Shown piece by piece: positions 48,460 to 59,792 of a stretch of 64,000 bases of DNA. The number at the start of each line of letters is the position of its first letter. Within the stretch, counting starts at the first letter, position 1. Source of the DNA: Polaromonas jejuensis NBRC 106434 (GTDB taxonomy: Bacteria; Pseudomonadota; Gammaproteobacteria; Burkholderiales; Burkholderiaceae_C); contig NZ_BCYO01000004.1 of NCBI RefSeq assembly GCF_001598235.1, positions 124,001 to 188,000 on the forward strand, in the 5' to 3' direction. The notes beneath the pieces were generated by a model. It did no database searches, was not told where the DNA came from, and saw only the letters and a list, made by a program, of their open reading frames with translations. The position numbers were made by a program, and so were the translations under genes.

Positions 48460-48822
48460 TCAGCAATCGAGGCAGGCCGCTCCGGCGCTGGCTTCGCAAG
48501 CCTGGCCTTCGCAGCAGTGCTCGCTCAGGTAGCCCAGCAGGGCGTTCATCTGGCCAAAATTGGCGCGGTAAATCAGGTTGCGGCCGCGCGCTTCGCTGCT
48601 GACCAGGCCTGAATGCGCCAGCTCCTTCAGGTGAAAGGACAGGGCGCTGGGCGCCACGCCCAGCTGCTCGGCCATGCTGCCCGGCGTGAGCCCGGCCGGT
48701 CCGGCCACCACCAGTGCGCGGAAGGCGCGCAGGCGTTGCGCCTGGGCCAGCGCCGCCAAGGCCTTGACGGCAGAGGTTTCATCGAGCGTTGTCAGACTAT
48801 CGCTTTGGCTAATTGCTTCCAT
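48460..48822 (-). CDS. arsR: ArsR-family metalloregulator
   Basis: A 120-residue winged-helix repressor. The recognition helix is in the segment MAEQLGVAPSALSFHLKELAHSGLV. Arsenite sensing is probably by the C-terminal cysteines C103, C104, C109, C117 and C120; the classic ELCVCDL motif in the DNA-binding helix is absent. It represses from the palindrome at 48819-48846, which covers its own start codon. It lies divergent from the glutaredoxin-type arsC and arsH genes. Confidence 0.93.
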   Translation of the reverse strand: MEAISQSDSLTTLDETSAVKALAALAQAQRLRAFRALVVAGPAGLTPGSMAEQLGVAPSALSFHLKELAHSGLVSSEARGRNLIYRANFGQMNALLGYLSEHCCEGQACEASAGAACLDC

Positions 48823-48846
48823 AATTCAAATATAATTGAATTATGG
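48819..48846. promoter_or_regulatory. ArsR operator palindrome
   Basis: CCATAATTCAA and TTGAATTATGG form perfect 11-bp arms around the spacer ATATAA. The left arm includes the arsR ATG. Position between the divergent arsenic transcripts and perfect symmetry make it the probable ArsR site for both directions. Confidence 0.75.
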
Positions 48847-48912
48847 AAATGAGGCAATGCTTCAAATCATTCAGTGCGCCTGTGCCGGCATCTTCATCAG
48901 GAAAATACGCCC

Positions 48913-49344
48913 ATGTCCAACATCACGATTTACCACAACCCCCGCTGCGGGACCTCGCGCAACACGCTGGCGCTGATCAGAAACACCGGCGCGGAGCCCG
49001 AGATCATTGAATACCTGCTCACGCCGCCGACGCGCGAAAAGCTCGCGGCGCTGATCGCGCAGATGGCGATTCCGGTGCGCGAGCTGATCCGCGCCAAGGA
49101 AAAGCTGTATGACGAGCTCCAGCTGGACGACCCGGCGCTGAGCGATGACGCGCTGATGGACGCCATGCTGGCCCATCCCATACTGATCAACCGGCCCATC
49201 GTGGTGACGCCGCTGGGCACGCGCCTGTGCCGGCCCTCCGAAGCCGTGCTGGACATCCTGCCGCTGCCGCAGCGTGCTGCGTTTGCCAAGGAAGATGGCG
49301 AGCCGGTGATCGATGAGAAGGGCGAGCGTGTTGCCGGCCGCTGA
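48913..49344 (+). CDS. arsC: Arsenate reductase, glutaredoxin type
   Basis: A 143-residue reductase of the plasmid R773 type. The catalytic cysteine is C12 in [11 protein letters not shown], with [20 protein letters not shown] as the arginine-bearing block. It uses glutathione and glutaredoxin, unlike the thioredoxin-type enzyme at 47854-48354, so the locus holds two unrelated arsenate reductases. I chose the ATG at 48913 ([10 protein letters not shown]); an upstream in-frame ATG would add 13 residues not typical of the family. Confidence 0.94.
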
Positions 49345-50062
49345 ATCCCCGGCCGCGGATCTTCCCCATATCGACCCGGCGTTTTTTGTGCGGCCGACGG
49401 CCGCCCGGCTCCAGGCGCCGGTGCCCAGCACGCACCCGCCGCGCATTTTGCTGCTCTATGGTTCGGTGCGCGAGCGCTCCTACAGCCGCCTGGCCAGCGA
49501 GGAGGCGGCCCGCCTGCTGCAGGCCATGGGCGCCCAAACCCAAACCTTTGACCCGCGCGGCCTGCCTCTGCCCGATGACGCGCCGGACTCGCATCCCAGG
49601 GTGCAGCAACTGCGCCAGCTGGCGCAATGGGCCGAAGGCATGGTCTGGTGTTCGCCGGAACGCCACGGCGCCATGACCGGCATCATGAAGTCGCAAATCG
49701 ACTGGATTCCGCTCTCGGACGGTGCGGTGCGCCCCACCCAGGGCAAGACGCTGGCCGTGATGCAGGTCTCGGGCGGCTCGCAGTCCTTCAACGCTGTCAA
49801 CCAGATGCGGGTGCTGGGCCGCTGGATGCGCATGCTGACCATTCCCAACCAGTCCTCGGTGGCCAAGGCCTTTCTGGAGTTTGACGAGGCTGGTCGCATG
49901 AAGCCCTCGGCTTACTACGACCGGCTGGTGGATGTCATGGAGGAACTGGTCAAATTGACCCTGCTGACCCGTGACGTGTCGCCCTGGCTGGTAGACCGTT
50001 ACAGCGAGCGCAAGGAAAGCGCCGAGGCACTGTCCCAACGGGTGAACCAGCGCGCGCTGTAG
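49328..50062 (+). CDS. arsH: ArsH NADPH-dependent FMN reductase
   Basis: ArsH is a flavodoxin-fold enzyme that oxidises trivalent organoarsenicals. The N-terminal [13 protein letters not shown] block, the phosphate-binding loop [15 protein letters not shown] and [18 protein letters not shown] identify it. The gene overlaps the end of arsC. I prefer GTG 49328, with AAGGG six to ten bases upstream, but ATG 49313 is also possible and would add five residues. It is the distal gene of the plus-strand arsenic transcript. Confidence 0.92.
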
Positions 50063-50167
50063 CGCACGCTCTGGGCGCGGCAGCAGGCGTTCAGTCCATT
50101 CCGGTCAGGCGCAGGCCGGCTTCTTAAGCCTTTCAGGCCTCCCGTCCACGGCTGGCGGGCGCAAGTA

Positions 50168-50205
50168 GCTATTGATTTGATAGCGTTTGTCGGGGCCTGC
50201 AGCGG
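50168..50205. repeat. GCTAT...ATAGC intergenic hairpin repeat
   Basis: GCTAT-TGATTTG-ATAGC with a GC-rich tail lies between arsH and the Pho-box array. Confidence 0.6.
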
Positions 50206-50234
50206 CTCACGCCGGCGGCCCGGCTGCGGGGCTG

Positions 50235-50278
50235 CTGTCACGCAACTGCCATTGAATTGACACGAACGTGTCACCCCC
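50235..50278 (+). promoter_or_regulatory. Array of four 11-bp Pho-box-like repeats
   Basis: Four consecutive 11-mers are in register: CTGTCACGCAA, CTGCCATTGAA, TTGACACGAAC and GTGTCACCCCC. PhoB binds head-to-tail as dimers on such 11-bp units (consensus CTGTCAT plus 4 bases). The array precedes the lipid-remodelling genes, and similar boxes occur before ppk and pstS. Confidence 0.65.
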
Positions 50279-50296
50279 GGCTTTCAGAATCACGCC

Positions 50297-50551
50297 ATGA
50301 CCCGAACGATGGAGCATGCGATGGGACTGGACTTGAATCACGCCGGTGAGCAGGCGGCAGCAGAAAAAACGGTCGGCCGACTCGGCCAGTACGACCTCGG
50401 CACGCAGTGTCTGCGCATTTTGCGATGCACCGCCAAGGCCATGGCCAGCAGCCCCGGCGGCTTGCGTTTCAGGGCGGGGACCCGGCCCTGGCTGGAGGGT
50501 GTGCCGGGTGGCCGACGTGAAAGCGCGGTTTTTCAGGCCGCCAATGAATAA
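50297..50551 (+). CDS. Possible small hypothetical protein downstream of the Pho-box array
   Basis: An 84-codon open frame between the Pho-box array and the terminator at 50557. I do not recognise it. It has no clear ribosome binding site, signal peptide or domain, and another frame is also open over much of it. It may be a leader peptide, or not translated at all; the segment could instead make a ~300-nt regulatory RNA. Confidence 0.3.
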   Translation: MTRTMEHAMGLDLNHAGEQAAAEKTVGRLGQYDLGTQCLRILRCTAKAMASSPGGLRFRAGTRPWLEGVPGGRRESAVFQAANE

Positions 50552-50556
50552 GTGTC

Positions 50557-50590
50557 AAGCCCCTTTAAGTCCTCTTAATGGGGCTTTTTT
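50557..50590 (+). terminator. Rho-independent terminator upstream of olsB
   Basis: The stem AAGCCCC / GGGGCTT continues inward with TTAAG / CTTAA around the loop TCCT, and is followed by a T-run. It lies between the Pho-box array and olsB, so it either ends a short transcript or attenuates the operon. Confidence 0.85.
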
Positions 50591-50653
50591 ACAGCCGGAT
50601 TCCAGGCAAAGCGGTTTCGTTTTTTGAGATATCAAGAAAACAAGGAGTTAGCC

Positions 50654-51529
50654 ATGAAAGAACTGCCCAATCCCACCTTTGCATTGTCGCCCGTCGCAAT
50701 GCCACGGGGGTCACTTCATCAAAGCGGTCATGTTGTCAGCCAGCCCGCTGTTCAAGGGGTTCAAAGGCCTGCAGTGGGGAAAATCTCGGTCAGCTGGGCC
50801 CGGCACCAGGACGAGGTCCGGCAGGCGCAGCGCCTGAGGTACCAGGTGTTCGCGCTGGAAATGGGCGCGACGCTGTCGAAAACCCTGCCCGGCCATGACG
50901 TGGACCTGTTTGACGACTACTGCGAGCACCTGCTGGTGCGCGACGCCGACAGCCAGGAGGTGATTGGCACCTACCGCGTGCTGACGCCGACCCAGGCCAA
51001 GCGTGTGGGCAGCACCTACAGCGACACCGAGTTCGACCTGACCCGGCTGCGCAGCCTGCGCGAGCGCATGGTCGAGCTGGGCCGCAGCTGCGTGCACGCC
51101 GACCATCGGCATGGCGGCGTGATCCTGGCGCTGTGGGGTGCGCTGGCCGAGTTCATGGCCCGCAACCAGCTCGACACCATGATTGGCTGCGCCAGCATCC
51201 CGATGCAGCACAACGGTGTGTCCAGTGGCCACGCGGCGGCCAGCATCTGGCGCCAGGTCAGGCAAACCCATCTGGCGGCTATCGAGTACCGCGTGACGCC
51301 GCGCCTGGCCCTGCCGGTCGAGCAACTCGACGATTCGCTGGACATTGAACCACCCGCGCTCATCAAGGGCTACCTGCGCCTGGGCGCCAAGGTGCTGGGC
51401 GCGCCCGCCTGGGACCCGGACTTCAATTCGGCCGACTTGCCCATGATGATGCGCATCGCCGATTTGCCGCCGCGTTACCTGAAGCATTTTTCCGGCAAAC
51501 CGCTGTCTGGCAAGCCGGAGCCGGCCTGA
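50654..51529 (+). CDS. olsB: OlsB-like N-acyltransferase (ornithine lipid synthesis)
   Basis: A 291-residue GNAT-fold acyltransferase of the OlsB/autoinducer-synthase-like group. Conserved blocks are QRLRYQVFALEMGA, the DLFDDYCEHLLVRD segment, VIGTYRVLTP and ELGRSCVHADHRHGG. OlsB transfers a 3-hydroxyacyl chain from ACP to ornithine, the first step to ornithine lipids that replace phospholipids when phosphate is scarce. The ATG at 50654 is preceded by AAGGAG. The PlcP-like gene overlaps its stop by one base, forming an operon with the glycosyltransferase gene. No olsA acyltransferase gene is in the window. Confidence 0.85.
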   Translation: MKELPNPTFALSPVAMPRGSLHQSGHVVSQPAVQGVQRPAVGKISVSWARHQDEVRQAQRLRYQVFALEMGATLSKTLPGHDVDLFDDYCEHLLVRDADSQEVIGTYRVLTPTQAKRVGSTYSDTEFDLTRLRSLRERMVELGRSCVHADHRHGGVILALWGALAEFMARNQLDTMIGCASIPMQHNGVSSGHAAASIWRQVRQTHLAAIEYRVTPRLALPVEQLDDSLDIEPPALIKGYLRLGAKVLGAPAWDPDFNSADLPMMMRIADLPPRYLKHFSGKPLSGKPEPA

Positions 51530-52389
51530 TGCGAAGCATGTTCGACGCCATGGGGTCGCTCGGGAACGGGTTTGCACCCGACGACGATGACAACGACGAT
51601 GACGCGCTGCGCAAGCGTTACCGCACGATTTTCATTTCCGACCTGCACCTGGGCACACCCGGCTGCCAGGCCTTGGCCCTGCTGGATTTTCTGAAGGCCC
51701 ACCCCAGCGACAACCTCTACCTGGTGGGCGACATCGTCGATGGCTGGCAGTTGCGCCGCAAATGGTACTGGCCGCAATCGCACAACGACGTGGTTCAAAA
51801 GCTCTTGCGGCGCGCCCGCAAAGGCTGTCGCATTGTTTATGTGCCCGGCAACCATGATGAGTTTGCGCGTGAATTTATCGGTCACCAGTTCGGCGGCATC
51901 GAGGTGATTGATGAAGCCGTGCACACCACCGCCGACGGCCGCCGGTTGTGGATCATCCACGGCGACTATTTCGATGCCGTGGTGCAGTGCGCCAAATGGC
52001 TGGCCTATGTGGGCGACAACCTCTATGAATTCACCCTCAAGCTCAACCGCTACCTGAACCGCCTGCGCGCCCGCATGGGCCTGCCTTACTGGTCGCTGTC
52101 GGCCTATCTGAAGCAAAAGGTCAAGAGCGCGCTCAACTACGTCACGGACTTTGAAGTGGCTGTCGCCAACGAGGCGCGCCAGCGTGGCCACCAGGGCGTG
52201 GTCTGCGGCCACATCCACCGCGCCGAGATGCGCGACATCAGCGGCGTGCTGTACTGCAACGACGGCGACTGGGTCGAAAGCCGCACCGCGCTGGTGGAAA
52301 ACTTCGACGGCACGCTGGAACTGCTGCACTGGGCGCCGGCCCATGAAACCCAGGGCCGCGGCCATGTCGCTGCAACGGCGGTCGCATGA
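51529..52389 (+). CDS. plcP: PlcP-like metallophosphoesterase (phospholipase C for lipid remodelling)
   Basis: A 286-residue calcineurin-like phosphoesterase. Metal-binding blocks are ISDLHLG (residues 36-42), VGDIVDGW, PGNHDEF, IHGDYFD and CGHIHRAE. It resembles LpxH in outline but follows the PlcP branch (GCQALALLDFL, WYWPQSHNDVVQKLLRRARKG, YWSLSAYLK). PlcP removes phospholipid head groups during phosphate starvation, releasing diacylglycerol. An unusual acidic run, seven Asp in eight residues (18-25), precedes the catalytic domain. It overlaps the glycosyltransferase gene by ATGA, the same plcP-agt pairing seen in rhizobia and marine bacteria. Confidence 0.82.
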   Translation: MRSMFDAMGSLGNGFAPDDDDNDDDALRKRYRTIFISDLHLGTPGCQALALLDFLKAHPSDNLYLVGDIVDGWQLRRKWYWPQSHNDVVQKLLRRARKGCRIVYVPGNHDEFAREFIGHQFGGIEVIDEAVHTTADGRRLWIIHGDYFDAVVQCAKWLAYVGDNLYEFTLKLNRYLNRLRARMGLPYWSLSAYLKQKVKSALNYVTDFEVAVANEARQRGHQGVVCGHIHRAEMRDISGVLYCNDGDWVESRTALVENFDGTLELLHWAPAHETQGRGHVAATAVA

Positions 52390-53501
52390 AGATAGCCCTG
52401 ATCACCGATGCCTGGCAGCCCCAGGTCAATGGCGTCGTCACCACCCTGGTGGAACTGGTGCGCGAGTTGGGGCAAGCCGGACACGAGGTCGAGGTGATTC
52501 ACCCCGGCCTGTTCAAGACCCGGCCTTGCCCGGGCTATGCCGGCATTGACCTGGCGGTGCGCCCCAAGCGCGGCCTCACGGACAGGCTGGACGCGTTCGG
52601 GCCGGAAGCCATACACATTGCCACCGAGGGCCCGCTGGGCTGGGCCGCGCGCAGCTACTGCATCAAGCGCGGTTTGCGTTTCACGACCGCGTTTCATACC
52701 AAGTTTCCTGAAATCCTCCATGCGGCCCTGAAAATTCCGCTGTCGTGGGGCTATGCGCTGTTTCGCCACTTCCACAAGCCGTCTTCCGGTGTGATGGTGC
52801 CTACCCATGGCGTGCTGCGCATGCTGGCGCAGCGCGGTTTTCGCAACCTGCGCAGCTGGACGCATGGCGTGGATACGCAGCTGTTCATCTTCCAGCCTGA
52901 GCCGCGCCCCCATCCGCCGCTTTCTCCGCCCACCGGCATCGTGGCCCGTCCGGTCTCGCTGTTTGTGGGGCGGGTGTCTTACGAAAAAAACATAGAGGCT
53001 TTTTTAAGGCTGGATATTCCCGGCACCAAAGTCGTCTGCGGGGTGGGGCCGCTGGAATCCTCGCTCCGGGAGCGTTACCCCAACGTCCGCTGGATGGGCG
53101 TGCTGGCCCGCCCCGAACTGGCCAGGGTGTATGCGGCGGCCGATGTGTTTGTGTTTCCGAGCAAGTCGGAAACCTTTGGCCTGGTCATGCTGGAGGCCAT
53201 GGCGGCTGGCACGCCGGTGGCGGCCTACCCGGTCGATGGGCCGCTGGAAGTGCTGGGAAAACCCGACGGCAGCTGTCACGGCGGTGTCATGGACGCCGAT
53301 TTGCAGCAGGCCTGTTACGGGGCGCTGGCGGTGCCGCGTCATGAGGCGCGTCTGCGTGCCTTAGACTTCAGCTGGGCGCATGCCGCGCAGCTGTTCGAGA
53401 GTTACCTGGTGGCGGCCCAAAACATGACTGCTTGCAAGCCTGCCGGAGCCGGTGCAACATCAGTCAAAAGTACTGTCACGCCTTTGTCATCAAACCAATA
53501 A
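52386..53501 (+). CDS. Agt-like glycolipid glycosyltransferase (GT4)
   Basis: A 371-residue GT-B glycosyltransferase. The N-terminal ITDAWQPQVNGVVTTLVELV is characteristic of glycolipid synthases of the Agt/MgdA type. SWTHGVDTQLF, LFVGRVSYEKN and the C-terminal E-x7-E motif SETFGLVMLEAMA bind the nucleotide sugar. Next to a PlcP-like gene, the expected reaction is transfer of glucose or glucuronate to diacylglycerol, giving phosphorus-free glycolipids. Its last codons contain the Pho box that serves ppk. Confidence 0.84.
   Translation: MKIALITDAWQPQVNGVVTTLVELVRELGQAGHEVEVIHPGLFKTRPCPGYAGIDLAVRPKRGLTDRLDAFGPEAIHIATEGPLGWAARSYCIKRGLRFTTAFHTKFPEILHAALKIPLSWGYALFRHFHKPSSGVMVPTHGVLRMLAQRGFRNLRSWTHGVDTQLFIFQPEPRPHPPLSPPTGIVARPVSLFVGRVSYEKNIEAFLRLDIPGTKVVCGVGPLESSLRERYPNVRWMGVLARPELARVYAAADVFVFPSKSETFGLVMLEAMAAGTPVAAYPVDGPLEVLGKPDGSCHGGVMDADLQQACYGALAVPRHEARLRALDFSWAHAAQLFESYLVAAQNMTACKPAGAGATSVKSTVTPLSSNQ
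53473..53494 (+). promoter_or_regulatory. Pho box upstream of ppk
   Basis: CTGTCACGCCT and TTGTCATCAAA are two in-register 11-mers matching the PhoB consensus. They lie within the last codons of the glycosyltransferase gene, 50-70 bases before ppk. Confidence 0.65.
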
Positions 53502-53543
53502 ACACTCAGGGTTACCTTTGATTACTGAGATCTGTCCTTGTTG

Positions 53544-55637
53544 ATGCCCGCTTCACCCGTCCCGCTGACCGCTGCGGCGCCAGTCATCCAGTTTCTGGAC
53601 CGCGACCACGGCATCCTCGCCTTCAACGAGCGGGTGCTGGACTGGGCCAGGCGGGCGGATGTGCCCCTGCTGGAGCGCCTGCGGTTTTTGTGCATCGTGT
53701 CGTCCAATCTGGACGAGTTTTTCGAGGTCCGCACGGCGCCTCATTTGACGGCGGCCCAAAGCAGCGAGCAAAAGGGTGTGTACACAGCCCAATCCTTCCA
53801 GGCGCTTTCGGCGGCGACACATGACATGGTGGCGCGCCAGTATGCCCTCTACAACAATGAGCTGCTGCCCGCGTTTGAACGGCAAGGCATTCGTATCATC
53901 TCGCACGGCGCGCGCAATCCGGCCCAGCGGCGCTGGGTCAAGGATTATTTCGAAAGGCAGGTGCGGCCCCTGCTGATTCCGGTCGGACTGGATCCTTCCC
54001 ATCCGTTTCCACAGGTGGCCAACAAGTCACTCAATTTCATTGTCCGGCTCAGCGGGTATGACGCCTTTGGACGTCAGAACGACATTGCCATCGTCAAAGT
54101 CCCGCGGGTGTTGCCGCGTCTGATCGAGATGCCTGGCCAGGACGGCAAGAAGGGGACGCTGTTTGTTTTGCTGTCCAGTGTCATCCGGTCCCACCTGGCC
54201 GAGCTGTTTCCCGGCCGGGGCGTGGAGCAGTTTTCCCAGTTCCGTGTCACGCGGCACTCCGATCTGGCGGTGGATGAAGACGACGTGAAAAACCTGCGCA
54301 TGGCGTTGCGCCAGGGTCTGGAGCAGCGCCACTATGGCCAGGCCGTCCGCCTGGAAGTGTCGGCCGGCTGCTCGGAATACCTCTCTGGCTTTCTACTCAA
54401 GCAGTTCAACCTGCCGGCGCTTGCCTTGTACCGGGTGAATGGCCCGGTCAACCTGGTGCGGCTGACTCAGCTGGTGGACCTGGTCAACGATCCCAAACTG
54501 CTTTTCCCGCGCTACAGCGGCTGCTATCCAATGCAACTGCAGCCCGGGCAGTCTTTTTTCGAGCGGCTCAAGCAGGGCGATGTGTCCAGCCACCAGCCGT
54601 TTGAGAGTTTCGACGGCGTGTTGGATTTTCTACGCGAGGCCGTTAACGATCCCCAGGTGTTGGCGATCAAGCAGACCATTTACCGCACCGGCACCGATTC
54701 GGAGCTGATGCTGCTGTTGCGGGAAGCCGTTCGGCGTGGCAAGGAAGTCACCGTCGTGGTGGAGCTCAAGGCGCGCTTCGACGAGGAAGCCAACATCAAC
54801 TGGGCAGAAATGCTGGAGTCGATTGGGGCGCAAGTGGTGTACGGCGTGGTGGGCCTGAAGACCCACGCCAAAATGCTGCTGGTGACCCGGCGTGAAGGCC
54901 GGCGCCTCCGCCGCTACGCCCACCTGTCTACCGGCAACTACAACCCGCGCACGGCCCGCCTCTACACCGACCTGAGTTACCTGACGGCCGAGCCCTTGAT
55001 GACGGCAGACATTGACAATGTCTTCGTGCACCTGGCCAGCCAAAGCCGCTTGCCCAAATTGAATCATCTGTGGCTGGCACCGTTTCAGCTGCACCGCAAG
55101 CTGCTGGACAAAATCGACTCGCTGGGCGAAGCCGCCCTGCAGGGCAAAGACACGCGCATTGTGGTCAAAATGAATGCGCTGACCGACGAAGACCTGATAC
55201 TGGCGCTTGTCAGGGCCGGGCAGCGCGGCGTGAAAATTGATTTGATCGTGCGCGGCGGCTGCATGTTGCCGGCGCAGGTGCCGGGCGTCACGGACAACAT
55301 CCGGGTGCGCTCGGTGATTGGCCGTTTTCTGGAGCATTCGCGCGTGTTTTATTTCCGCTGCGCGGAGGAAGAAGCCTTGTACTTATCCAGCGCCGACTGG
55401 ATGAACCGCAACATGCTGCGGCGGATAGAACTGGCCTGGCCGGTGAACGATCCTGCCATCCGCCAGCGCATCGTGGACGAATGCCTGGTGGCCTACCTGA
55501 ACGACGGGTGCGATGCCTGGGATCTGCAACCTGATGGCACCTACGCGCGCGTCAATCCGCCAGATCCGGCACAGCGCCACGGCGCACAGTCGGCCTTGAT
55601 GGCCCGCTATTCGGGCTCCCTGCAACAGGAGAAATGA
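53544..55637 (+). CDS. ppk: Polyphosphate kinase 1
   Basis: A 697-residue enzyme that polymerises the gamma-phosphate of ATP into polyphosphate. The N-domain start (IQFLDRDHGILAFNERVLDWA, SSNLDEFFEVR) is intact. The catalytic histidine that becomes phosphorylated is in GLKTHAKMLLV, and the second active-site histidine is in FLEHSRVFYF. RYAHLSTGNYNPRTARLYTD is the conserved nucleotide-binding block. The ATG at 53544 was chosen over a TTG two codons earlier. A Pho box precedes it and sixA follows after three bases. Confidence 0.95.
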   Translation: MPASPVPLTAAAPVIQFLDRDHGILAFNERVLDWARRADVPLLERLRFLCIVSSNLDEFFEVRTAPHLTAAQSSEQKGVYTAQSFQALSAATHDMVARQYALYNNELLPAFERQGIRIISHGARNPAQRRWVKDYFERQVRPLLIPVGLDPSHPFPQVANKSLNFIVRLSGYDAFGRQNDIAIVKVPRVLPRLIEMPGQDGKKGTLFVLLSSVIRSHLAELFPGRGVEQFSQFRVTRHSDLAVDEDDVKNLRMALRQGLEQRHYGQAVRLEVSAGCSEYLSGFLLKQFNLPALALYRVNGPVNLVRLTQLVDLVNDPKLLFPRYSGCYPMQLQPGQSFFERLKQGDVSSHQPFESFDGVLDFLREAVNDPQVLAIKQTIYRTGTDSELMLLLREAVRRGKEVTVVVELKARFDEEANINWAEMLESIGAQVVYGVVGLKTHAKMLLVTRREGRRLRRYAHLSTGNYNPRTARLYTDLSYLTAEPLMTADIDNVFVHLASQSRLPKLNHLWLAPFQLHRKLLDKIDSLGEAALQGKDTRIVVKMNALTDEDLILALVRAGQRGVKIDLIVRGGCMLPAQVPGVTDNIRVRSVIGRFLEHSRVFYFRCAEEEALYLSSADWMNRNMLRRIELAWPVNDPAIRQRIVDECLVAYLNDGCDAWDLQPDGTYARVNPPDPAQRHGAQSALMARYSGSLQQEK

Positions 55638-55640
55638 GTC

Positions 55641-56114
55641 ATGGACCTGATCCTGTGGCGTCATGCGGAGGCAGAAGACTGGTCCGGCCGTGATGCGCAG
55701 GGTCTCCATGACTTGCAGCGGGCGCTGACACCACGCGGGGAAAAGCAGGCCGCGCGCATGGCCAGCTGGCTGGACCGGCAGTTGCCCGAAGGGGCGCGCA
55801 TCATGGTGAGCCCGGCCAGGCGCTGCGAGCAGACGGCGCTGGCGCTGGGGCGCAAATACAAGATCAGGCCCGAGCTGGGCCCCGGTGCCAGCCCGGCGCA
55901 ATTGCTGGAGCTGGTGCAATGGCCGCTGGGTAAATCACCCATTCTGCTGGTGGGCCACCAACCTACGCTGGGGCAAGTCATTGCGCAGCTGCTGGGCCTG
56001 CAGGAAAACGACTACCCGGTCAAAAAAGGGGCGCTGTGGTGGTTTCGCAGCCGGGACCGGGAGGGCCGCAGCCAGACCATCGTGGTGACCGTGCAATCAC
56101 CCGAGGTACTTTGA
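55641..56114 (+). CDS. sixA: SixA-type phosphohistidine phosphatase
   Basis: A 157-residue histidine-phosphatase-superfamily protein. The catalytic motif is WRHAEAED (RHA rather than RHG, usual for SixA), followed by SPARRCEQTALALG and the second active-site His in LVGHQPTLGQ. SixA removes phosphate from phosphohistidine signalling proteins such as PtsN-pathway or ArcB-type domains. Three bases separate it from ppk, so it may temper a phosphate-related relay. It converges with ppx. Confidence 0.9.
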   Translation: MDLILWRHAEAEDWSGRDAQGLHDLQRALTPRGEKQAARMASWLDRQLPEGARIMVSPARRCEQTALALGRKYKIRPELGPGASPAQLLELVQWPLGKSPILLVGHQPTLGQVIAQLLGLQENDYPVKKGALWWFRSRDREGRSQTIVVTVQSPEVL

Positions 56115-59110: not shown

Positions 59111-59164
59111 TTGAAATGAGTCCGCCAGGCCATGCCGGGCAAGGCCTGGCTGTCTGGCGCTGCC

Positions 59165-59647
59165 TTACTTCGCGGGAGGGATCAGCACGCTGTCCACGAT
59201 ATGCACGACGCCATTGGTCGCGGAAATATCGGCGGTTTGAACCAGGGCTTCTTCCACGGTGAGGAAGTCGCCGGACTTGTACAGGGCCACATTGGCGCCA
59301 TTGACGGTCTTCTGGTTGCCGTTCTTGGCCTCGGCTGCCATGACCTTGCCGGGAATCACGTGGTAGGTCAGCAGTGCCTTGAGCTTGGCTGGGTCCTGGC
59401 CGAGCTGGTCCATGGTTTTGGCGGGAACCTTGGCAAAGGCCTCATTGCTGGGGGCAAAAACAGTGAATGGACCCGTGCCCTTGAGCGTATCGGCCAGGCC
59501 GGCTTTGGCGACCAGGCTGTTAAGGGTGCTCAGCTGTGGCTGGGCGGCGAGGGTGTCGGCGACCGATTTCGGGCCCGATGCGGAGGTGGCGCAGCCGGCG
59601 AGGGCGGCCAGCGTGGCGGTGATGATCAGAATGCGGCGATGGAACAT
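59165..59647 (-). CDS. Fasciclin-domain lipoprotein
   Basis: A 160-residue protein with a lipoprotein signal (lipobox LAGC, acylated C19) and one fasciclin (FAS1) domain. The FAS1 H1 and H2 motifs are GTGPFTVFAPSNEAFAKVP and NGVVHIVDSVLIPP, with LLTYHVIPGKV between them. FAS1 domains mediate adhesion or surface binding. Its upstream region has a Pho-box-like pair on the minus strand, so it may respond to phosphate together with the divergent pstS gene. Confidence 0.92.
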   Translation of the reverse strand: MFHRRILIITATLAALAGCATSASGPKSVADTLAAQPQLSTLNSLVAKAGLADTLKGTGPFTVFAPSNEAFAKVPAKTMDQLGQDPAKLKALLTYHVIPGKVMAAEAKNGNQKTVNGANVALYKSGDFLTVEEALVQTADISATNGVVHIVDSVLIPPAK

Positions 59648-59690
59648 GCGAAACTCTCCTGGTTAAGACAGCGGCAAGCGTAGGGGGCGA

Positions 59691-59770: not shown

Positions 59771-59792
59771 TTGTCACATATTTGTCATATGA
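59771..59792 (+). promoter_or_regulatory. Pho box upstream of pstS
   Basis: TTGTCACATAT and TTGTCATATGA are two in-register 11-mers close to the PhoB consensus, about 50-70 bases before the pstS ATG. A TACAGT sequence near 59800 is a possible -10 element. Confidence 0.75.

Follow-up and report, generated by a model that had tools for sequence, protein, structure and literature searches.

The array and the small gene

We analysed a 64,000-nucleotide stretch of the Polaromonas jejuensis NBRC 106434 genome (contig NZ_BCYO01000004.1, positions 124,001 to 188,000; hereafter the window), in which overlapping genes resembling olsB, plcP and agt are followed by ppk and a sixA-like gene (Table 1). A previous sequence-only reading had placed the three overlapping genes behind four 11-bp Pho-box-like repeats. 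The genes were found where it put them, with overlaps of 1 base (olsB-like and plcP-like) and 4 bases (plcP-like and agt-like), and the repeats were confirmed. The array does lie upstream of the lipid genes, but they do not stand directly behind it: the 375 bases that separate it from olsB contain a conserved small-protein gene and a hairpin with a run of T residues, a predicted terminator. This small gene, its relation to the array and its possible role at the head of the operon are the subject of this report.

Table 1. Features of the locus, in window coordinates
Feature	Positions	Strand	Basis
Four 11-base Pho-box-like direct repeats	50235-50278	+	score 24/28
Candidate -10 element CAGAAT	50285-50290	+	6 bases past the end of the array
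Small-protein gene, 76 codons	50321-50551	+	GGAG at 50311-50314; homologues; selection on the core
Hairpin and T-run, predicted intrinsic terminator	50557-50590	+	inverted repeat, 13-base arms, 92% complementary
olsB-like ornithine N-acyltransferase gene	50654-51529	+	ATG start; Pfam Acetyltransf_5 4.2e-36; NCBIfam
plcP-like metallophosphoesterase (phospholipase C) gene	51529-52389	+	Pfam Metallophos_2 6e-12
agt-like family 4 glycosyltransferase gene	52386-53501	+	Pfam Glyco_transf_4 3e-20
ppk, polyphosphate kinase 1	53544-55637	+	Pfam/NCBIfam polyphosphate kinase
sixA-like phosphohistidine phosphatase gene	55641-56114	+	61.1 bits against a SixA cut-off of 74.5
Two-unit Pho-like box ahead of pstS, independent site	59771-59788	+	

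The array is made up, in order, of the units CTGTCACGCAA, CTGCCATTGAA, TTGACACGAAC and GTGTCACCCCC, and was scored against the Pho consensus heptamer CTGTCA[TC]. None of 5000 dinucleotide shuffles matched its score of 24 out of 28, and on both strands of the 64-kb window a score of at least 20 was reached elsewhere only by the same array in an 11-base-shifted register. The arrangement expected of a Pho regulon promoter, tandem 11-base repeats before a -10 element, is present in the window with this heptamer as the consensus. The gene for PhoB lies at contig position 188397, 397 bases beyond the end of the window, and its product scores 328 bits, above the cut-off.

A genome scan with the small gene gave 53 loci, one of which (L273, Halomonas) was taken for a chance match and dropped, leaving 52 named loci; Polaromonas sp. 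JS666 is among the carriers of the locus (L232). In a set of 53 loci that have the small gene, 50 showed an array scoring at least 20 on its 5' side; the lowest score was 16 and the mean was 22.5, compared with 14.8 in shuffles of these upstream stretches, of which (5300 in all) 0.06% reached 20. With the unit spacing altered to 10 or 12 bases the mean scores were 14.9 and 15.3 and the maximum was 18. The threshold of 20, to which the shuffle fraction refers, belongs to this upstream test; 19 was used in the co-occurrence counts given below. In 40 of 50 loci a -10-like [CT]AnAAT motif was observed no more than 25 bases from where the array ends.

Translation of the small frame may begin at 50321, or at an in-frame ATG upstream at 50297 that would extend it to 84 codons. 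The 76-codon reading is more likely, because a GGAG motif is well placed before its start. An in-frame start with a Shine-Dalgarno-like motif was present in 33 of 50 loci. A search with the protein returned 228 homologues at an expectation value (E) of up to 1; among the 120 listed, those that carry an organism name were hypothetical proteins of Polaromonas and Rhodoferax. Fourteen positions are invariant in the alignment of these 120 (Q37, L39, L42, C44, T45, A46, G54, G55, L56, R57, F58, G61, W65 and L66), and the protein is laid out as one predicted helix with the invariant motif Q.L..L.CTA, followed by GGLRF..G...WL. Across 53 loci and 32 core codons the ratio of non-synonymous to synonymous differences (pN/pS) was 0.248 in frame, rising to 1.38 and 2.10 on a shift of the reading frame, and third codon positions held 60% of the differences. 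With values above 1 in the other frames, this ratio indicates that the small gene encodes a protein under purifying selection.

The small protein of the window had no match in Pfam or NCBIfam at E up to 10, and none among plasmids. PHROGs likewise returned nothing for it, and of the four proteins submitted only P0117 gave weak matches (E 0.059, 0.021 and 0.33). The best match of its profile to PDB sequences had an E of 0.51. Two identities were considered and rejected: membership of DUF1127, as the Pfam search (E up to 10) placed the protein in no family, and descent from phoX as a remnant, for which the alignment covered only 16 residues (E 0.085).

Co-occurrence with olsB, the hairpin and phoX

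In the genus set, for which 70 of the 87 listed olsB places were fetched (L157 ends before its upstream part), an array scoring at least 19 was present at 52 of 52 olsB loci with the small gene and at 1 of 17 without it (L196); the Fisher p of 9e-15 for this pairing ignores relatedness. Since the genus loci share descent, the counts are not independent, and they rest partly on draft genomes. Array and small gene go together in the genus. As to the loci without an intact small gene, a decayed-looking copy stands before olsB in L193 and L195, and the array alone does so in L196.

The terminator-like stretch (50551-50596) has a folding energy of -17.7 kcal/mol. Before olsB, a hairpin with a T-run was found at 34 of the 52 genus loci that have the small gene and at all 17 that lack it, compared with 10 of 690 shuffled controls, which preserve base content only. 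The small gene stops 8-9 bases short of olsB at nine loci (L204-L206, L208, L210-L214), and these show no such hairpin. A consensus scan found no plus-strand promoter between hairpin and olsB in the window. At loci with the hairpin, transcription would get to olsB either by reading through in part or from a separate start. The position of the hairpin between the small frame and olsB, in the window as at these 34 loci, is consistent with the frame being a leader whose translation controls olsB by attenuation there, its product having no function. We consider such a leader quite unlikely: selection acts on the protein sequence of the internal core, 18 of the 52 loci have no such hairpin, similar hairpins precede olsB at every one of the 17 loci that lack the small gene (14 of them with a phoX-type gene), and gene and array are kept at three loci with no olsB behind them.

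These three stand-alone loci (L226, L233 and L239) are among the 52 named loci, of which 48 have olsB within 1100 bases behind the small gene, 3 do not, and in 1 the region is not visible. Of the same 52, 30 have plcP, 14 lack it and 8 do not show its place. Twelve of the 14 nevertheless have olsB, on stretches long enough to have contained plcP. This close company of olsB, together with the stops just before olsB at the nine loci above, would suit a partner of OlsB (an activator, or a link to acyl carrier protein or to the membrane) that takes part in ornithine-lipid synthesis. On balance we think this unlikely. Many relatives without the small gene have olsB behind phoX or directly behind an array, and, as the stand-alone loci with their retained array show, the small gene stands on its own. 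Counting the cut-off locus L253, an olsB match was found in one of four such genomes, those of L233, L239 and L253, all drafts, giving none. This makes it doubtful that the role is confined to ornithine lipid. The exception is the genome of L226 (Polaromonas glacialis R3-9), where olsB lies elsewhere and is preceded by the decayed-looking copy of the small gene at L193; that the two loci share a genome is taken from their coordinates, which would make L226 the intact copy.

An arsH-like gene lies within 800 bases upstream of the small gene in 18 of the 52 named loci and in the window, and at L226 and L233 it precedes a small gene that no olsB follows. A function of the small protein in arsenic handling could be proposed from this neighbourhood. 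We give it a very slim chance, as 34 of the 52 named loci have no arsH-like gene there and the array is the mark of a phosphate signal. In the window, the genes directly 5' of the array (48460-50062) resemble arsR, arsC and arsH; the arsH-like gene carries a flavin mononucleotide (FMN) reductase domain, and the other two, going by their sequence, are presumably arsR and arsC.

At 14 of the 17 genus loci without the small gene, a phoX-type C-terminal motif was found directly before olsB. In the family set described below, the upstream gene was checked at one locus, L092, and is PhoX by Pfam (E 2e-175), and an array scoring at least 20 was found around the phoX start at 6 of the 7 phoX-olsB loci tried. 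Based on these phoX-type genes upstream of olsB and the arrays at phoX starts, phoX and the small gene seem to occupy one and the same position. The genus loci concerned are L169, L171-L176, L179, L182, L183, L186, L188, L190 and L197, and a hairpin with a T-run precedes olsB in them as well.

The lipid genes and their order in the family

The product of the olsB-like gene was matched best by the NCBIfam OlsB models, at scores under their curated cut-offs (157 against 350 and 147 against 320 bits); the names olsB, plcP and agt are accordingly meant as "-like". The gene directly 3' of plcP encodes a family 4 glycosyltransferase, as expected of an Agt. The best OlsA-like acyltransferase of the same genome scores 134.8 bits (cut-off 300) and its gene is unlinked to the operon; this search covered four of the six PF01553 places in the genome, two of the four being in a frame that gave no family. 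A search for RNA families in 49900-53800 gave no match at E up to 1.

The metallophosphoesterase had been called PlcP-type in the sequence-only reading, which its grouping with true LpxH in a phylogeny would have refuted. Its score on the LpxH model is 40.3 bits, compared with 184 (cut-off 190.35) for another, LpxH-type protein that the genome encodes separately. The same split is repeated in relatives: among 40 family genomes including its own, 38 have an LpxH-type match of 156.7-210.3 bits, one of the remaining two has the match in two pieces (140.4 and 45.8) and the other, a 65% complete draft, has none, and the plcP loci score only 32.6-50.5 bits on this model. A tree was built from the 29 of 60 rows that passed a motif filter, the LpxH of the window's own genome being among those that failed. 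In it, 14 of 15 PlcP rows form a 100/100 branch apart from the 14 LpxH rows. The fifteenth, L046, falls outside the branch and is a misread frame without the motifs, because of which the formal count of changes is 2 and not 1. The motifs are GNHD and GHIH in the remaining PlcP rows, and GNRD and GHTH in those of LpxH.

Neither scores nor tree thus group the enzyme with LpxH, and its assignment as PlcP-type holds. It could still be argued that it is an LpxH and the cluster a part of lipid A synthesis, since relatives are named UDP-2,3-diacylglucosamine diphosphatase or LpxH in databases and all 7 of its PDB matches are LpxH. The scores, motifs and branch described above leave this next to no likelihood, and the sequences by themselves already contradict it. 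Public databases apply these two names to the PlcP group as a whole, and the LpxH naming is likely a misannotation.

The family set comprised 150 genomes, of which 106, including that of the window, have a plcP orthologue (at least 148 bits) and 13 more have LpxH-grade matches only. Apart from the one in the window's own genome there were 105 orthologues, of which 100 were fetched; the fragments G104, G100 and G048 and the short contigs G040 and G008 were left out. In 39 of these 100 loci plcP has an olsB gene ahead of it on the same strand, with up to 345 bases between the aligned parts, and the order olsB-plcP-agt is found in 31, with ppk next in 26 of the 31. As this order occurs in part of the family, it is not peculiar to the window, and the suggestion that olsB in the same operon is unusual for the lineage does not stand. 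A phosphate-linked lipid-remodelling operon, as the sequence-only reading had supposed, is well supported by homology and conservation.

That reading had the array drive olsB-plcP-agt directly, which would make the small frame a chance one. Within the family, 25 of the 39 olsB-plcP loci do have an array scoring at least 19 within 500 bases of olsB, and a convincing match to the small protein was found in only two of the 25 (L091 and L109). For the window we regard a plain operon of this kind as highly improbable, since in the genus the small frame shows both conservation and selection.

A gap of 42 bases separates the agt-like gene from ppk, and one of 3 bases ppk from the sixA-like gene. The lipid genes do run into ppk, as had been noted, but not on into pst: ppx and a gene for a periplasmic binding protein, both on the minus strand, lie between the sixA-like gene and pstSCAB, which has a Pho-like box of its own. 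An open frame of 183 amino acids (59132-59683) precedes pstS and has no Pfam or NCBIfam match.

At a number of loci ppk was found behind olsB and plcP and agt were not found, although the small gene, or a diverged version of it, is retained (L165, L168, L202, L204-L206, L208, L210-L214, L216-L220, L229, L234, L254, L261, L262, L266-L269 and L271).

Proposed role and known systems

We propose that a Pho-driven small protein, probably a regulator that acts by binding another protein, heads a lipid-remodelling operon reached by read-through, and would put the probability of this at about 0.6. The order of the elements, the purifying selection, the co-occurrence of array and small gene and the presence of a separate LpxH-type protein are taken directly from the sequences. 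With the array directly 5' of the small gene and a terminator ahead of the lipid genes, the small protein is likely to be the first product of the low-phosphate membrane response. Low phosphate would activate PhoB, which would bind the array, and transcription would start near 50297, after the array and CAGAAT, with the small gene first. Part of the transcription would stop at the hairpin, and the predicted read-through would yield OlsB, PlcP, Agt, Ppk and SixA. From the known pathways, PlcP would free diacylglycerol from phospholipid and Agt would turn it into glycolipid; OlsB together with the unlinked OlsA-like acyltransferase may produce ornithine lipid. The small protein would meanwhile regulate the low-phosphate response by binding a partner protein.

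Several observations weigh against this proposal. The consensus scan did not list the hairpin, 18 of the 52 small-gene loci are without a hairpin and T-run, a clear -10-like motif is missing at 10 of 50 loci and a Shine-Dalgarno-like start at 17 of 50. Scored on the reverse strand, the array stretches likewise exceed shuffles (mean 17.2, maximum 19), which is expected because the motif is partly symmetric. The spread of the small gene is narrow: it was found in 42 of the 61 genomes from the genus but in none of 40 others, and in 10 of 349 family genomes, only six of them with strong matches (15 candidates scored per genome). The OlsB and OlsA scores below curated cut-offs and the finding of olsB in one of the four genomes discussed above count on the same side. 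The AlphaFold model is poor (mean predicted local distance difference test, pLDDT, of 59) and reveals no function; as it offers one helix (residues 32-51) and is otherwise of low confidence, the regulatory step is one that we infer.

More tentatively, and at less than even odds, the small protein may represent a new Pho-regulon family of Polaromonas, Rhodoferax and close relatives, produced before the lipid enzymes and dedicated to regulating the membrane switch under low phosphate, with its gene and phoX as alternative first genes of an operon split by a terminator. If our proposal is right, a single conserved gene order would, across a large environmental family, unite polyphosphate storage with two pathways to phosphorus-free lipids, and a testable small protein would head the low-phosphate lipid response. 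Array, small gene, hairpin and phoX are combined in several ways in nature, so that species comparisons can be used to test what each contributes.

Among the open-access papers listed, which make for weak evidence of absence, we found no report of olsB-plcP-agt in this family or of the small protein. Lipid remodelling by PlcP and Agt has been described in rhizobia, SAR11, Erythrobacter, Methylosinus and Pseudomonas, with Pho boxes reported at plcP gene clusters and with PlcP releasing diacylglycerol that Agt glycosylates (PMC4796936, PMC9239053). As in those systems, plcP is followed by agt in the window; unlike them, the window has olsB ahead of plcP and ppk behind agt. PMC4796936 describes btaAB, agt and other glycosyltransferase genes as neighbours of plcP, and "olsB" does not occur in its main text. 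In Pseudomonas aeruginosa, olsBA is reported to be up in low phosphate (PMC9804370), and in P. putida BIRD-1 PlcP, OlsA and OlsB are reported to be Pho-dependent (PMC5082522). The window resembles olsBA of Pseudomonas in its OlsB-like N-acyltransferase, with a candidate OlsA-like protein in the genome. In BIRD-1, going by locus tags, olsA-olsB and plcP lie far apart, whereas the window groups olsB with plcP and agt, and the olsA-like gene lies away from them.

For the small protein there are two precedents. Small DUF1127 proteins are reported to bind the sensor kinase PhoR (PMC12501420) and are, like the proposed window protein, short proteins tied to phosphate control; the window protein differs in lacking a Pfam match, and Pho-box control does not appear in the abstract of that report. 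E. coli YtfK is described as a PhoB-induced small protein that acts on SpoT (PMC8600398). It differs from the window protein, which matches neither Pfam nor NCBIfam at E up to 10, and the two are likened by description: each is a small protein with Pho boxes directly upstream. Given these precedents elsewhere, a partner-binding regulator is our best guess, and the small protein most likely regulates the low-phosphate response through protein binding.

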